Part shown: positions 1,937-53,531 of the stretch, piece after piece
Numbering within the stretch: the stretch's first letter is position 1
How the letters are laid out: every line of letters starts with the position of its first letter
From: an uncultured Lachnospiraceae bacterium
Lineage (GTDB): Bacteria; Bacillota; Clostridia; Lachnospirales; Lachnospiraceae
Direction: 5' to 3'
DNA: 64,000 bases
Assembly: GCA_902776305.1 (NCBI GenBank)
Contig: CACYPS010000001.1
Coordinates: forward strand, 248,001 to 312,000
The notes under the pieces: model-generated
Databases searched by the model: none
What the model saw: the letters and a program-made list of their open reading frames with translations, nothing else
What the model was told of the DNA's origin: nothing
Translations under genes and position numbers: made by a program

Positions 1937-4792
1937 TTACTTAGCTTCGTACCAGTCCGTACCGATATGACAATCCGTCTCCAGAACGACATCCAGAGAC
2001 GCGGCCGCCTTCATCTCTTCCTCGAGAAGTGCCCGCGCTCTCTCCGCCTCATCCTTCGGTGCCTCGATCAAAAGCTCATCGTGGATCTGAAGGATCAGCT
2101 TTGACTGCAGGCCCTCTTTTCTGAGCCTGTTGAACACCCGTATCATGGCGATCTTGATAATATCCGCCGCAGTTCCCTGGATCGGGCTGTTCATGGCGAC
2201 ACGCTCGCCGAATGAGCGCTGCATAAAGTTGGAGGATTTGAGCTCCGGTACCGGTCTCCTTCTTCCGAACAGCGATTCCGCATAACCTTTTTCTCTCGCA
2301 TTTCGTACCAGCCTGTCAAGGAATGCTTTGATCTTCGGATAGGTATGGAAGTAATCATTAATATAATCCTGCGCTTCCTTCCTCGAGATGGAGAGTCCCT
2401 GAGAGAGACCGAAACTGCTGATGCCGTACACGATCCCGAAATTGACGGCCTTGGCGTTTCTTCTCATCTGATCCGTGACCTCATCGAACGGAACGTGGAA
2501 CACCTGCGACGCCGTAGTTCTGTGGATATCCTTAGCTTCGCGATATGCCTCGATCAGTTTCTCATCTCCGGACATATGGGCCAGAACGCGCAGTTCTATC
2601 TGTGAGTAATCGGCGTCGACGAAGACGCATCCCTCAGCCGGATAGAAGCATTTACGGATCCTTCTGCCCAGGTCTTCTCTCATAGGAATATTCTGCAGAT
2701 TGGGATCCGTGCTGGACAGTCTGCCGGTCGCCGTGATCGTCTGGTTGAAAGTCGTGCGGATCTTGCCATCAGATTCAATATTCGTCTGCAGACCGTCCGC
2801 GTAAGTCGATTTAAGCTTCGAGTAGGTTCTGTACTCAAGAATATTTGCCACGATCTTGTAGTCCGGAGCCAGTTTCTCCAGAACATCCGCAGCCGTCGAA
2901 TAACCGGTCTTCGTCTTCTTTCCGCCCGGGAGCTTCATTTTCTCAAAAAGAATTACGCCGAGCTGTTTCGGACTGTTAATGTTGAATTCCTCGCCCGCCT
3001 CCTCGTAGATTTCCTGTGTAAGCTCGTCAACACGTGCGCCCAGCATCTCACTGTAGCGGACAAGTTCATCCCGGCTTGTCAGGATTCCTTCGTTTTCCAT
3101 GGAGGCAAGGACTGCTGTGAGCGGCATCTCAACATCGAGATACAGCGATTTCATTCCTTCCTCATCAAGACGTTTCAGAACCGGATCGATGCTCATTAAT
3201 CCGGTCCATGCAGCAAGTCCTGCTGTCACAGCCAGATTAGTTCTTGTCTCGTCCTCATCTTCTTTCTTCTTCCTGCGGTCCGCGATCCAGGCAGCAGGTC
3301 CCTTTTTCCCGATCAGCTCCTCCCGCGCTTTGACTGTCGTCTTAAGATATCCGTTCGCGACATCATCATACTCCCAGTCGGATTTCAGAGGATCGATCAG
3401 ATACGCACCGATCACACTGTCATAGAATCCGGCTGCGTCTGTGATACGAAGGAGCTTTTCAATTTCCTTGGCGTTAACACACCCGATCCGACCGGTGCCG
3501 GATATGATTCCCGCGAGACTTCCAAGGAGAAAATCAGCGAATATCAGTTTACTTTCGGTATTCACGGATTCATCCCGAGAGCCGTCTACCGCGGCATACT
3601 TCCCGCCAGGCGCGGCAAAATCGAAAGATAGCTGGCCATCGCTTGCAACAGTGTAGGAATCGTAACTCTCGTTAATATTCGTCTCTGAATCTATTCCTGT
3701 CGTAAAATGACTGATGATATATTCGCCCACTACAGGAAAGCCGTAGCATTTTCCGGAAAATGCCAGACCGGCCGCATACAGAACCCTCTTCTCGGAGACG
3801 AAATCAATTCCGACGTCCCCGCCGTTTTCTGCATGTTTCCGGGCTTCCTCAAATATCTTCTGAGCTTCGGCTCGGTCAGTTACGACAGTGACTTCGACGC
3901 TGACGGGAACCTCGGATTTATCAGCTTCAAAAAGGCCGAGAAGACTCTTGAAATTCAGTCTTCTGAACATCTCATAAGACTTTTCGTTATAGATTTCCCC
4001 GAGAGTGAGCTCATCGAACGAGACATCCACCGGCGCATCACACCGGATCGTCGCGAGATCCTTGGACAGCACCGCAAGATCGTAATGATCACGCATTGCA
4101 CTCTGAGCTTTCTTCGGCTTGATTTCATCCACATGCTCATGGGCATTTTCTATGGAATGGAACTGCGATATGATGGCGGAGGCTGTTTTTGGACCGACGC
4201 CCGGCAGCCCCGGAATATTGTCGGAAGAATCTCCCATCAAAGCCTTCATATCGATGAACTCAAGAGGAGTTACGCCCATCGTCTCCAGCACCTGCTGTGC
4301 GTGATAGCGCTCATATGTCGTCTGACCGCCTTTTGTCTTCGGGAGAATGATCTCCGTCCTGTCCGTAGCGATCTGAAGGAGATCTCGGTCTCCGGAAACA
4401 AGCGATACGGTCATACCGCTATCCTCACCTCTTCTCGAGAGTGTTCCCAGGATATCGTCTGCTTCCCAACCGTCCATTTCGATGTAGCGGATCCCCATAG
4501 AAGAAAGAAGTTCCCTGATGAGCGGCATCTGCTCATGGAATTCAGGCGGGGCCGGGGACCGATTGCCCTTATAAGCCTCGTATTTTTCATGACGGAAGGT
4601 AGGTGTCGGCCTGTCAAATGCCACAGCCAGGTAGTCAGGCCTCTCCTCCTCGATAATTTTTCTCATGATGGCGAGAAAGCCGTAAACGGCATTCGTATGA
4701 ACGCCGTCCGGTGCAGTCATAGTCAGCGGCATTCCGTAAAATGCCCGGAACATAATGCTGTGGCCATCTATCAAAACAAGTTTTTTATCCAT
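1937..4792 (-). CDS. polA: DNA polymerase I
   Basis: A 951-residue family A DNA polymerase used in Okazaki fragment processing and repair. Residues 1-290 form the 5' nuclease domain (GHSIMFRAFYGMP, DKLPG-like helix-hairpin region IPGLPGVGPKTA). Residues about 300-560 occupy the place of the 3'-5' proofreading domain, but the DxE metal motif is replaced by DFVSE, so proofreading is probably lost, as in many Firmicutes. The polymerase domain has motif A (DADYSQIELRVLAHMSGD), motif B (RRNAKAVNFGIVYG) and motif C (IHDELLIE). It is about 70 residues longer than the Bacillus enzyme, mostly in the middle domain. First large gene of the operon, 28 bp after the zf-HC2 gene. Confidence 0.97.
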   Translation of the reverse strand: MDKKLVLIDGHSIMFRAFYGMPLTMTAPDGVHTNAVYGFLAIMRKIIEEERPDYLAVAFDRPTPTFRHEKYEAYKGNRSPAPPEFHEQMPLIRELLSSMGIRYIEMDGWEADDILGTLSRRGEDSGMTVSLVSGDRDLLQIATDRTEIILPKTKGGQTTYERYHAQQVLETMGVTPLEFIDMKALMGDSSDNIPGLPGVGPKTASAIISQFHSIENAHEHVDEIKPKKAQSAMRDHYDLAVLSKDLATIRCDAPVDVSFDELTLGEIYNEKSYEMFRRLNFKSLLGLFEADKSEVPVSVEVTVVTDRAEAQKIFEEARKHAENGGDVGIDFVSEKRVLYAAGLAFSGKCYGFPVVGEYIISHFTTGIDSETNINESYDSYTVASDGQLSFDFAAPGGKYAAVDGSRDESVNTESKLIFADFLLGSLAGIISGTGRIGCVNAKEIEKLLRITDAAGFYDSVIGAYLIDPLKSDWEYDDVANGYLKTTVKAREELIGKKGPAAWIADRRKKKEDEDETRTNLAVTAGLAAWTGLMSIDPVLKRLDEEGMKSLYLDVEMPLTAVLASMENEGILTSRDELVRYSEMLGARVDELTQEIYEEAGEEFNINSPKQLGVILFEKMKLPGGKKTKTGYSTAADVLEKLAPDYKIVANILEYRTYSKLKSTYADGLQTNIESDGKIRTTFNQTITATGRLSSTDPNLQNIPMREDLGRRIRKCFYPAEGCVFVDADYSQIELRVLAHMSGDEKLIEAYREAKDIHRTTASQVFHVPFDEVTDQMRRNAKAVNFGIVYGISSFGLSQGLSISRKEAQDYINDYFHTYPKIKAFLDRLVRNAREKGYAESLFGRRRPVPELKSSNFMQRSFGERVAMNSPIQGTAADIIKIAMIRVFNRLRKEGLQSKLILQIHDELLIEAPKDEAERARALLEEEMKAAASLDVVLETDCHIGTDWYEAK

Positions 4793-50017: not shown

Positions 50018-50046
50018 AAAAAGGCCGCTGCCTTACGGCAGCGGCC
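50018..50046 (-). terminator. Terminator of the HPr-LDH gene
   Basis: Perfect GGCCGCTGCC-TTAC-GGCAGCGGCC hairpin followed on the minus strand by TTTTTATG, 36 bp after the stop. Confidence 0.95.
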
Positions 50047-50082: not shown

Positions 50083-51384
50083 TTATGCTTTGCACTCGCC
50101 GAATCCGAGCGGATTGCCTTCGTTGAAGTTACGTGCATTCTCAAGTGTTACAGCAGCGATAGCCTGAAGAGCCTCACGTGTGAAGAATGCCTGATGAGAT
50201 GTCAGAACAAGGTTCGGGAACATCAGCAGTCTTGCTGTGATGGAGTGCTGCAGATAATCATCGGAATGATCTGTGTAAACGTTGGCATCCTCGCCCTCGT
50301 AAACGTCAAGAGCTACAGCGTGGAACTTGCCTGTCTTCAGAGCATCGATCAGAGCTTCTGTGTCGATCAGGCCGCCGCGAGCGGTGTTGACCAGCATTGC
50401 TGTGTCTTTCATCTTAGCGATAGCTGCTGCATCGATCAGATGATATGTTCCGCCTTCACCCATGATAAGCGGAGCATGCAGAGAAATAAGGTCTGCCTTT
50501 GCAAGGAGCTCATCCTTCGTTACATAAGTAAGAAGGCCTTCGTCCACAAGACCCTGATTCGGGAAAGCATCCCAAGCGATAACTGTCATGCCGAATCCCT
50601 TGCAGATTCTTGCCATGCACTGTCCGATCTTACCTGTGCCCATGATACCGGCAACTTTGTTGTGAAGGTCCATGCCGAGAAGTCCGCTGAGTGCGAAGTT
50701 GTTGTCCTTGACCTTCGGAACAGCCTTGTGAAGTCTTCTGTTAGCGCATGTGATGATGGAGATTGCATGCTCGGCAACTGCGTACGGTGAATAAGCCGGA
50801 ACACGGATAACGGTAATGCCGCATTCTTTAGCTGCCTGAAGATCAACATTGTTGAAGCCTGCGCAACGGAGAAGGATAAGTTTAACGCCGCACTCTTTGA
50901 GTGTCTCGACAACTTCTCTCGGAGCCTCATCATTAACGAAGATGCAGACTGCGTCGTAGCCCTTTGCAAGACCGGCTGTTTCAGGTGTAAGACGTGTGCT
51001 GAAATACTTGATATCGCAGTTGTATGTGCCTTCGCCCTTATCTTTTGCAAGCTCGCTGAAGAACAGACGATCATAATCCTTTGTGCCGAAGAAAGCAATC
51101 TTAAGAATTTCAACTTTCTTCTTTTTGCTGAATTCGTCGGCAAGAACAGCCTTGATTGCCTCGATAGCACCTTCTTCATCGCCGCCTTCTGCAGAAATCT
51201 CGAGCTGTGCGCCCTGCTTTGCATTTAATGCGAGGATCTGAAGAACATTATTGCCGTTCGCTTTTTTATCGCCGCACTTAATTGTGATGGCAGAAGCGAG
51301 ATTAACGCATGCCTGAGCAAGGTTTGCCGCCGGACGAGCATGGATACCAAGATCGTTTGCTACTTCATAAATAAATGATTTCAA
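50083..51384 (-). CDS. HPr phosphocarrier domain fused to D-lactate dehydrogenase
   Basis: A 433-residue two-domain protein. Residues 1-85 are an HPr fold: YEVANDLGIHARPAANLAQA puts the phospho-accepting His exactly at position 15, while position 46, the regulatory Ser of Gram-positive HPr, is Asn (KKANGNNVLQIL). A Lys-rich linker (residues 86-93) leads to a complete D-2-hydroxyacid dehydrogenase of the D-LDH type: LKIAFFGTKDYDRLFF start, NAD loop GIMGTGKIGQCMAR, catalytic Arg in LLRCAGFNNVDL or NTARGG, Glu in DVYEGED and His in TSHQAFF. It reduces pyruvate to D-lactate and regenerates NAD. Start is TTG with GGAG 7 bases upstream. Own promoter and terminator. The fusion suggests PTS-dependent control of lactate formation. 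Confidence 0.92.
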   Translation of the reverse strand: MKSFIYEVANDLGIHARPAANLAQACVNLASAITIKCGDKKANGNNVLQILALNAKQGAQLEISAEGGDEEGAIEAIKAVLADEFSKKKKVEILKIAFFGTKDYDRLFFSELAKDKGEGTYNCDIKYFSTRLTPETAGLAKGYDAVCIFVNDEAPREVVETLKECGVKLILLRCAGFNNVDLQAAKECGITVIRVPAYSPYAVAEHAISIITCANRRLHKAVPKVKDNNFALSGLLGMDLHNKVAGIMGTGKIGQCMARICKGFGMTVIAWDAFPNQGLVDEGLLTYVTKDELLAKADLISLHAPLIMGEGGTYHLIDAAAIAKMKDTAMLVNTARGGLIDTEALIDALKTGKFHAVALDVYEGEDANVYTDHSDDYLQHSITARLLMFPNLVLTSHQAFFTREALQAIAAVTLENARNFNEGNPLGFGECKA

Positions 51385-51524
51385 AGTATTTCTCCATTCT
51401 GGAGCGTTTTCCGGAGGATGCTCTTCACGATCCGCTACCTCCTCTGACCCTCATTGACGCCCCGGCAAGAGAGTCCGTGCAGCGAAAGACAGTCGTGAAA
51501 ATTTGTGCCTTTCGCGTTTAAATG

Positions 51525-51540
51525 TTACCATATCTGGTAA
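51525..51540. promoter_or_regulatory. Candidate operator of the HPr-LDH gene
   Basis: Perfect dyad TTACCA-TATC-TGGTAA, about 140 bp upstream of the start codon and directly downstream of a -10-like TAAAAT on the minus strand, where a bound repressor would block transcription. It does not match the Rex consensus (TTGTGAA...TTCACAA). Confidence 0.5.
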
Positions 51541-51890: not shown

Positions 51891-53531
51891 ATGAATAAAG
51901 AACCAGTTTATGTCACCGGTCACCAGCACCCGGATACCGACTCCATTGCATCTGCTATCGCCTATGCTTTCTTCAAGAGAGCCATGGGTGTACGCGCTGT
52001 CCCCTGCAGACTCGGTCCGGTAAATGCCGAGTCCGCATATCTCCTGAAACGCTTCGGCTTCGATGAGCCAATGCTGCTCACAGACGCCAGAGTAAAGCTC
52101 AGCGAGATCACGCTCGACCCCCTCACTTATATCAACGAGGACGCTACGATTTTTGAATGTCTTCATCGCATGAACGACGAGAAACACACGTATTGCGGAG
52201 TCGTAGACAATGACCTGCATCTTGTCGGGCTTATCACCAAAAGCGACATAGCGGCAGTCGGTCTCGGCGATACGGCTTACAATATAGATATGCTTAAGAA
52301 AATCCGGTTGGATGATGTTGCCAAGACCCTGGACGGGACTATTGTTTACAGAGAAGAATCCATGCATCTTAACGGCAAGGTCAGCATGATCGCCATGGCG
52401 GACAGGGATCGTGTCAGCCGATATGATTTAAAAGACAGGATCATCATCGTCGGTGATGACTCCGAGACACAGAAGACGGTCATTGAAAAGGGAGCCGGAC
52501 TTGTGATCATTGTCTGGGCTGACAGTGTCTCAGATGAGGTCATTGAGACAGCCAAAATGAATCACTGCCCTATCCTGATCAGCGGTCACGGAGCGATGAA
52601 TACCTCCCGCTACATTTTCTTTTCGACCTCTGTTAAGGAAATTATGCAGAATGAAGTCATCACATTTAATACAAACGAGCTGGCAGAAGATGTAGGTGCC
52701 AAAATGCTGCGAAGCCGCTATCACATATATCCGATTATTGATATGGACAGAAAGCTCCACGGATACGCCGCCCGCTATCATATCATGACGGCCAAAAATA
52801 AGCAGATCATTATGGTCGATCACAACGAGTTTTCACAGTCTGTGAGGGCAATTGAGGAAGCGCGCATCCTGGAAGTCATAGATCATCACAGGATCAACGA
52901 CTTCTCATCCATGCAGCCGGTCTCCTTCCGAAATGAGATAGTCGGTTCGACAGCAACAATCGTCGCGACAATCTTCCGCGAAAACCAGATTCCGATTCCG
53001 CAGAATCTCGCAGGACTCCTTCTTGGCGCGCTCCTGTCCGACACGATGAATTTTCACTCACCGACAACGACCGATAAAGACAGGCAGACCGCAAACATTC
53101 TTGCGGCGATGGCGGATCTCGATATAGATGATTTTGCACGTGATATGTTCGCTGTAACTGCGGATACGACAGGCAAATCTTATGCGGAGATGCTGAATCA
53201 GGATATGAAGGTCTACAATATCCGTGAGTGCAATCTCTCAATATCCCAGGTCATTGTAACTTCGACGGAACAGGTTCGCAAAGAGAGCGCACAGATTCAG
53301 CCGGCAATCGAGACATTCTGCCGCAAAAAACGTCTTGATCTGGCTGTGCTGGTATTCTCGAGCATTCTGGATAACGGATCCGTTGTATTTTACGGCGGCA
53401 ACCGTTCTGAGTGGGCACGGGAGGCCTTCCCGGACAGGGATGGCGAGGAGCACAGCTTCCAGGATGGTCTGCTCTCCAGAAAACAGCAGATCCTTCCGAA
53501 GATCACAAACATCATCAATATGTACTCATAA
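51891..53531 (+). CDS. manganese-dependent inorganic pyrophosphatase with CBS and DRTGG domains
   Basis: A 546-residue family II pyrophosphatase. The DHH core starts with VTGHQHPDTDSIASAIAYA (metal His and Asp pairs), continues at VDHNEFSQS and EVIDHHRINDF, and the C-terminal DHHA2 part includes SRKQQILPKI. Between residues about 70 and 290 a pair of CBS motifs (LTYINEDATIFECLHRM, EIMQNEVITFNTNELAEDVG) flanks a DRTGG domain, as in the nucleotide-regulated CBS-PPases of Clostridia, which are inhibited by AMP/ADP and stimulated by ATP or diadenosine polyphosphates. It drives biosynthesis by removing PPi. Plus strand, single gene. Confidence 0.93.
   Translation: MNKEPVYVTGHQHPDTDSIASAIAYAFFKRAMGVRAVPCRLGPVNAESAYLLKRFGFDEPMLLTDARVKLSEITLDPLTYINEDATIFECLHRMNDEKHTYCGVVDNDLHLVGLITKSDIAAVGLGDTAYNIDMLKKIRLDDVAKTLDGTIVYREESMHLNGKVSMIAMADRDRVSRYDLKDRIIIVGDDSETQKTVIEKGAGLVIIVWADSVSDEVIETAKMNHCPILISGHGAMNTSRYIFFSTSVKEIMQNEVITFNTNELAEDVGAKMLRSRYHIYPIIDMDRKLHGYAARYHIMTAKNKQIIMVDHNEFSQSVRAIEEARILEVIDHHRINDFSSMQPVSFRNEIVGSTATIVATIFRENQIPIPQNLAGLLLGALLSDTMNFHSPTTTDKDRQTANILAAMADLDIDDFARDMFAVTADTTGKSYAEMLNQDMKVYNIRECNLSISQVIVTSTEQVRKESAQIQPAIETFCRKKRLDLAVLVFSSILDNGSVVFYGGNRSEWAREAFPDRDGEEHSFQDGLLSRKQQILPKITNIINMYS

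Follow-up and report, generated by a model that had tools for sequence, protein, structure and literature searches.

In a window of 64,000 nucleotides (by which we mean the whole stretch of DNA analysed) from an uncultured Lachnospiraceae bacterium, one gene encodes the phosphocarrier protein HPr and a D-lactate dehydrogenase (D-LDH) in a single polypeptide. We confirm that this HPr-D-LDH fusion is real, and from sequence comparisons it seems that many gut and rumen bacteria carry it and that it arose once. With a probability of about 0.5, its HPr half is a cis-acting input of the PTS, with enzyme I phosphorylating His15 and the state of His15 tuning the reduction of pyruvate by the attached dehydrogenase.

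The positions of the gene and of its parts are listed in Table 1. Sequences resembling the likely ribosome-binding site were seen by eye near the same position in relatives of the fusion, and an ATG, GTG or TTG start together with a purine-rich upstream sequence was recognized, again by eye, at the same place in related loci. The plus-strand frame over the same interval (50083-51384) has three internal stops and is not open. The gene is probably monocistronic because a terminator-like hairpin lies 36 nt past its stop codon; the consensus scan that located this hairpin counted 7 such sites in the region compared to 1.9 in shuffles. A palindrome, TTACCA-TATC-TGGTAA (51525-51540), lies in the gap that separates the fusion gene from the divergent gene at 51891 and is a possible operator. 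Common redox or catabolite operators were also considered: of 81 upstream regions, 3 and 4 contain two Rex-like motifs, respectively (against an expectation of 3.2 and 1.2 in simple shuffles), and 4 and 12 contain two cre-like motifs (expectation 1.4 and 6.4). Three of these four counts are somewhat higher than expected, yet the sites are so few and scattered that we draw nothing from them.

Table 1. Features of the HPr-D-LDH fusion gene and its surroundings, with positions counted from the first letter of the window
Feature	Position	Strand	Description	Basis
HPr-D-LDH fusion gene	50083..51384	minus	433 aa, TTG start, single ORF	
Stop codon of the fusion gene	50083-50085	minus		
GGAG	51392..51395	minus	likely ribosome-binding site, 7 nt upstream of TTG	sequence
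Intrinsic terminator-like hairpin	50023..50046	minus	10 pairs then TTTTT	consensus scan
HPr domain (PTS-HPr, PF00381)	51130..51384	minus	residues 1-85	Pfam, match to a solved HPr, model
His15 codon	51340..51342	minus	enzyme I phosphorylation site in HPr	invariant, 84/84
Arg17 codon	51334..51336	minus		84/84
Asn46 codon	51247..51249	minus	Ser position of HPr kinase substrates	N in 81/84
Variable linker	51109..51129	minus	residues 86-92	entropy, identity, dN/dS
D-lactate dehydrogenase module, LdhA type (by sequence)	50086..51108	minus	residues 93-433	Pfam, D-LDH matches
NAD-binding GxGxxG loop	50623..50640	minus	GTGKIG, residues 249-254	alignment
Arg336, presumably catalytic	50377..50379	minus		84/84; aligns with Arg of solved D-LDHs
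Asp360	50305..50307	minus	DVYE	84/84; identical in solved D-LDHs
Glu365, presumably catalytic	50290..50292	minus		84/84; identical in solved D-LDHs
His397, presumably catalytic	50194..50196	minus		84/84; identical in solved D-LDHs

An HPr spanning residues 1-85 and a complete D-LDH had been proposed by a sequence-only reading of the window, and both domains are indeed complete. PTS-HPr matches residues 4-82 (E 1.6e-22; 79.8 bits against a cut-off of 23), TIGR01003 PTS_HPr_family of NCBIfam scores 70.3 bits against a cut-off of 47.9, and residues 1-86 match a solved HPr structure (phmmer, E 4e-14). In the dehydrogenase part, 2-Hacid_dh matches residues 122-425 (E 6e-30) and 2-Hacid_dh_C residues 210-399 (E 2.3e-46), and phmmer aligns it with the D-LDHs of Fusobacterium nucleatum, Escherichia coli and Pseudomonas aeruginosa at E 4.4e-90 or better; Foldseek, used with an AlphaFold model, gave identities of 46-47% to the F. 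nucleatum, 45-46% to the P. aeruginosa and 43-44% to the E. coli enzyme. Carrying the 2-Hacid_dh domains, the NAD loop and the Arg, Asp, Glu and His residues, whose catalytic roles we take from work on D-LDHs, this half is by its sequence a D-LDH of the E. coli LdhA type, predicted to form lactate. VanH D-lactate dehydrogenase, the top-scoring NCBIfam model, was dismissed at 212.6 bits (cut-off 540), as was a multiphosphoryl transfer protein (MTP), since the partner of HPr is a dehydrogenase and no IIA, IIB or EI match was found in the fusion. The AlphaFold model has a mean pLDDT of 82 and a pTM of 0.70. Its HPr half (pLDDT blocks of 87-94) shows the beta-alpha-beta-beta-alpha-beta-alpha order of HPr, the linker has a pLDDT of about 69, and the LDH half falls to 54 in places; with these pTM and linker values the model does not indicate that the two halves are docked in any particular orientation.

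We scanned 84,980 species genomes with a pattern and obtained 206 relatives of the fusion, the best 80 of which were analysed. All 80 loci match from residue 1 (residue 6 in L016) to residues 430-433 within a single open frame and with identities of 71-100%, and this continuity among the best 80 of 206 excludes a frameshift or a joining of two separate genes, which the sequence-only reading had itself named as the finding that could overturn its proposal. Six of the 80 are strain records not marked as MAG: Sharpea azabuensis DSM 18934, S. porci, Eggerthia catenaformis, Bilifractor porci, Floccifex porci and Erysipelotrichaceae NK3D112. In alignment A1, hand-picked from the 80, all three Pfam domains are matched by 45 of 45 members.

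Conservation was assessed in an alignment of 94 fusion rows, 84 of them distinct, outside of which stand L005 (identical to L087), L101 (cut by a contig end) and L160/L161. His15, Ala16 and Arg17, the last of which we take to be the phosphotransfer partner of His15, are retained in all 84 distinct fusions, and Pro18 in 83. The NAD loop (G249, T250, G251, I253, G254) and R336, D360, E365 and H397 are likewise invariant (84/84). In the window, His15, Arg17 and Asn46 stand at the positions given by the sequence-only reading. The two halves have evolved at different rates: among 44 representatives with less than 90% identity, HPr averages 0.52 in pairwise identity, the linker 0.21 and LDH 0.78, and their median dN/dS values are 0.15 for HPr (339 pairs), 0.5 for the linker (217 pairs) and 0.097 for LDH (371 pairs). 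The linker, measured on residues 85-92, has the highest entropy of the entire fusion; the lysine-rich linker described before thus holds for the window, where residues 87-90 read KKKK, but across the family the linker is the least conserved part and is not rich in lysine throughout. Retention of His15 and Arg17 in 84 of 84 fusions, although HPr identity averages only 52% compared to 78% for LDH, supports a PTS input, and the acceptor site for enzyme I is apparently intact.

The surface around this site is conserved as well. On the partner face, taken here as the positions of the enzyme I/EII binding face of HPr, the mean entropy in fusions is 0.90 bits, compared to 2.14 bits at other surface positions (0 of 20,000 permutations as extreme). 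The ratio of face to other entropy is 0.40 in fusions, 0.64 in free HPrs with His15 and 0.52 in those without it. As the face is thus conserved in free HPrs too, even where His15 is missing, its conservation alone is no proof of phosphotransfer, and position 15 itself is the stronger evidence. Among free full-length HPr-like proteins of 15 genomes (13 with a fusion) His15 has been lost in 10 of 44, compared to 0 of 84 fusions, in counts that ignore kinship and leave aside ten weaker PF00381 matches starting at profile position 18-20. These ten proteins have D, E, I or Y at position 15, all of them keep Ser46, and eight are from fusion genomes.

Free HPr receives phosphate from enzyme I at His15, and in Gram-positives it is additionally controlled by HPr kinase at Ser46. 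Position 46 of the distinct fusions is Asn in 81, Arg in two, Asp in one and Ser in none of 84, a pattern consistent with an escape from HPr kinase. The escape postulated by the sequence-only reading would thus fit the fusion, but in the window's genus it is not special to it, because 13 of the 16 free HPrs with His15 and Arg17 that were examined have Lys46, including L003 and L004 of the window's own genome; the other three have Ser46 (L127 and L148 of G030, L154 of G013). Over all 28 free His15/Arg17 HPrs, position 46 is S in 11, K in 16 and Q in one. The clearest contrast is found in Sharpea, Eggerthia, Floccifex and NK3D112, whose genomes encode both a His15/Ser46 HPr and the Asn46 fusion; in S. 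azabuensis, S. porci, E. catenaformis, F. porci and NK3D112 this usual His15/Ser46 protein is the best-scoring free HPr. Crh of Bacillus subtilis is an HPr-like protein that has kept Ser46 and lost His15. The HPr paralogues of the window's genus (L001, L113, L131, L140-L142 and others) show a division of labour, with mostly His15/Lys46 proteins beside Crh-like ones that have Asp or Glu at position 15 and Ser46; L001 is of the Crh-like kind, with Ser46 and without His15. The fusion itself is not a Crh-like HPr, as it shows the reverse pattern of His15 kept and no Ser46.

The PTS partners are encoded in most hosts of the fusion. We found enzyme I in 22 of 25 fusion genomes searched and HPr kinase in all 25. 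Within the genus, 12 of 15 fusion genomes have enzyme I (PF05524), or 13 of 16 if G033 is counted, and HPr kinase is present in 15 of 15 (16 of 16 with G033); outside the genus, each of the two was found in 10 of 10 fusion-bearing isolates or bins. The fusion genomes in which PF05524 was not found (G004, G028, G034) are fragmented MAGs of 75-91% completeness. Enzyme I is as common in genomes of the genus without the fusion (18 of 21), which indicates compatibility rather than association.

Of 15 fusion genomes searched for L-LDH (PF00056), four have a match over the cut-off (G035, S. porci, S. azabuensis, F. porci), G030 has a single weaker one that stays below it, and the remaining 10 have none. 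In S. azabuensis DSM 18934 the fusion scores 714 bits and the next 2-hydroxyacid dehydrogenase 107 bits, while B. porci, F. porci and G035 each encode a second, distant dehydrogenase relative (32-33% identity, 145-195 bits) that could be active on pyruvate too. In many of its hosts, therefore, the fusion is probably the LDH that reduces most of the pyruvate. S. azabuensis is described in PMC7174568 as making predominantly lactate, and Kamke et al. (PMC5069950) report high expression of its D-LDH in low-methane sheep; the word HPr is absent from the main text of the latter paper. Judging from DSM 18934, which is a different strain, the D-LDH gene of that study would be the HPr fusion. The fusion is present in Sharpea, a lactate producer linked to low methane yield in sheep.

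The distribution of the fusion is patchy, as an even sample of the phylum contained it in 2 of 397 other genomes, both of one genus. Among 61 genomes near the window (37 of them of the window's genus, own included) 15 have it, all within the genus; one of the 15 copies (G028) is interrupted by a contig start, and from G033 only a 61-residue end piece with 97% identity is available. In a tree of the LDH half, a quick tree of 108 rows with long-branch warnings and with near copies from the genus excluded, a single branch (SH-aLRT 99) separates all 86 fused rows from the rest. The tree of the HPr half, built from 30 hand-picked fusions of the 84 and 44 free HPrs on 86 columns only, likewise has the fusions on one side of one branch (support 99/94). 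Fusions labelled Lachnospiraceae, Oscillospiraceae, Erysipelotrichaceae and Coprobacillaceae interleave in the LDH-half tree, with many of these family labels coming from metagenome bins, and the neighbouring genes differ by eye among six fusion loci inspected. With one clade per half, interleaved families and differing neighbours, the simplest reading would be one fusion event followed by transfer between families as a single gene. Two labels are odd among these rumen Bacillota and look mislabelled, Erysipelothrix rhusiopathiae (L048) and an uncultured eubacterium placed in Pseudomonadota (L079).

Candidates for a precursor or a vehicle of the fusion were rejected. An HPr gene adjoining a free D-LDH gene occurs at none of eight loci (2.8-4 kb). 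The window's genome also encodes a serA-like 2-hydroxyacid dehydrogenase followed by a free HPr with His15 and Lys46 (L158:1686-2864 and 3021-3278, G000:C21); as a source of the fusion this pair was dismissed, its order being reversed and no serA being found at the loci of L116, L125 and L123, which are related HPrs. Plasmid carriage was dismissed as well: 62 PLSDB records match at E 1e-60, and none covers 80% of the query. The fusion and a free LdhA-type D-LDH (defined by us as more than 290 bits) occur in 16 (G033 by its fragment) and 11 of the 61 genomes with an overlap of 0 (p 0.024), and in 16 and 4 of 37 within the genus (p 0.091); these p values ignore kinship, and mutual exclusion is therefore only suggestive.

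How might the HPr half act? We propose that it docks on enzyme I and receives the phosphate of PEP on His15, that this phosphate would be passed on, or lost when the PTS is drained by sugar uptake, and that the phosphorylation state of the tethered domain could tune pyruvate reduction in cis. With no Ser46, such an input would be kept apart from HPr kinase/CcpA signalling. The unphosphorylated form, prevailing during rapid sugar uptake at a low PEP/pyruvate ratio, would most likely favour lactate, with His15~P as a restraint. This sign of control is the least certain part of the mechanism and is proposed by analogy with Vibrio vulnificus, in which pyruvate kinase A (PykA) is stimulated through binding of HPr in its unphosphorylated form when glucose is present (PMC5987630). 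Phosphorylation by enzyme I, the coupling to activity and its sign are what we infer from these comparisons, and PTS flux may in this way control lactate formation. That the activity should be tunable is suggested by the D-LDH class, which is allosteric according to Furukawa et al. (PMC4230899). They report that FBP activates the D-LDHs of F. nucleatum and P. aeruginosa ("markedly" in the abstract), with FBP S0.5 values of 4.2 and 12 mM and an about 1.4-fold lower pyruvate S0.5, and that the E. coli enzyme responds to it slightly at most (PMC4230899). Related D-LDHs being FBP-activated already, a PTS input would fill no empty place, but an attached PTS sensor could be a sharper feed-forward input than FBP.

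There are several other conceivable roles for the HPr half. It might be a docking handle that places the D-LDH on enzyme I or EIIA/EIIB near the membrane, with phosphorylation as a by-product of docking and LDH activity unchanged. The conserved enzyme I/EII binding face and His15 next to an unconserved linker would fit such a tether, and in PTS fermenters a large share of pyruvate comes from enzyme I, which converts PEP to pyruvate. We nevertheless consider a tether or channel unlikely, as pyruvate presumably diffuses too fast for channelling to bring much and docking alone might tolerate the loss of His15, yet this residue is present in 84 of 84 fusions. It is improbable that HPr is a structural relic which aids folding, solubility or oligomer assembly without any PTS role; the faster evolution of the HPr half would agree with this, but a relic would hardly have retained His15 and Arg17 in 84 of 84 fusions when position 15 has changed in 10 of 44 free homologues. 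It is about equally improbable that the fused domain is an ordinary phosphocarrier, an extra HPr for sugar uptake or regulators whose fusion only couples its amount to that of LDH. In favour of this role, the phosphotransfer residues are kept, and HPr fused to PTS domains (FPr, MTPs) serves in sugar transporters (PMC2405797). Against it, a free His15 HPr is encoded in all 13 fusion genomes whose HPrs were examined, so that transport as such does not depend on the fused copy. Cells also normally contain far more HPr than they do of an enzyme, which likewise speaks against this role. In addition, the fusions have their own residues, C26 and A55 in 84 of 84 and N46 in 81 of 84, which are mostly missing from free HPrs (5, 5 and 0 of 45 rows, respectively). 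Finally, an artefact in which ptsH was joined to ldhA through a sequencing frameshift or misassembly is rejected as extremely improbable, because the protein is continuous in all 80 loci (best 80 of 206; six from strain records not marked as MAG), each half gives a single fusion clade, and eight free D-LDH loci inspected have no HPr gene.

If the HPr half does sense the state of the PTS, sugar uptake and NADH disposal would be coupled within one polypeptide, which would be a direct answer to the lactate switch and a new kind of PTS-regulated enzyme. The wider proposal, that gut and rumen lactate producers have wired PTS state into D-LDH by His15~P gating and that this arrangement has spread between families as a single gene, is more tentative and falls somewhat short of even odds; if true, His15~P gating would take the place that feed-forward control by fructose-bisphosphate has in classical lactic acid bacteria.

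Other HPr fusions were sought with PF00381 (E 1e-12) in frames of at least 300 aa in an even sample of 119 genomes of the phylum (own included), and ten further frames with a match were found, of which six were examined (all except those of G079, G135, G091 and G115). In two genomes of one genus (L182:1216-2481, minus strand; L183:281-1537, plus strand) a PfkB-family sugar kinase carries a C-terminal HPr-like domain without His15 (GLLGRSAA) and with Ser46 kept (DAKSILGV), as in Crh; this is the mirror image of the LDH fusion, and the sugar kinase may be controlled by HPr kinase. Two sigma-54-type activators (L185:481-2250 and L186:79-1842, both minus strand) start with an HPr that has the active-site His, followed by PAS, AAA+ and HTH domains. 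L184:1496-3022 (minus strand) combines a weak Sel1-repeat match with a C-terminal HPr-like domain lacking His15 (GICERSAA), and an adjoining long frame on the same strand (L184:2-1483) is similar by eye. L181:999-1898 (minus strand) has a PTS IIB match and then an HPr match in one frame, which may be a fusion or two genes with no stop between them. On more than one occasion, then, an HPr module seems to have joined a protein outside the PTS, and a regulatory role of the LDH fusion gains credibility from this.

In the openly licensed literature, covered mostly through titles and the openings of abstracts, we found no earlier description of an HPr-dehydrogenase fusion, in agreement with the statement of the sequence-only reading that no such system had been described; within this literature, and as far as our searches show, an HPr fusion with a fermentation enzyme as partner is undescribed. 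The fusion shares with multiphosphoryl transfer proteins (FPr/FruB, DhaM-type, EI-HPr-IIA) the placement of HPr within a larger protein, but in those proteins HPr is joined to PTS domains, in most cases IIA, or to EI, whereas in the fusion it is joined to an NAD-dependent enzyme of metabolism. HPr fusions usually with IIA and also with EI are described in a survey of PTS phosphotransfer proteins, from whose main text the word "dehydrogenase" is absent (PMC2405797). Control of an enzyme at the PEP/pyruvate node by the state of HPr, as we propose it, has its counterpart in HPr and PykA of V. vulnificus; there, however, free unphosphorylated HPr binds in trans, and enzyme and phylum are different (PMC5987630). 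With the tetrameric allosteric D-LDHs of F. nucleatum, P. aeruginosa and E. coli (5z21, 5z20, 5z1z) the fusion has the fold, the catalytic residues and 43-47% identity in common; unlike the fusion, these enzymes are without an HPr domain, and their effectors are pyruvate, oxamate and Mg2+, for the first two enzymes also millimolar FBP (PMC4230899). Crh of B. subtilis is, like the fused domain, a specialised HPr paralogue in which one of the two phosphorylation sites has been kept, and the choice of site is the opposite one, with Ser46 kept and His15 lost in Crh and His15 kept without Ser46 in the fusion.
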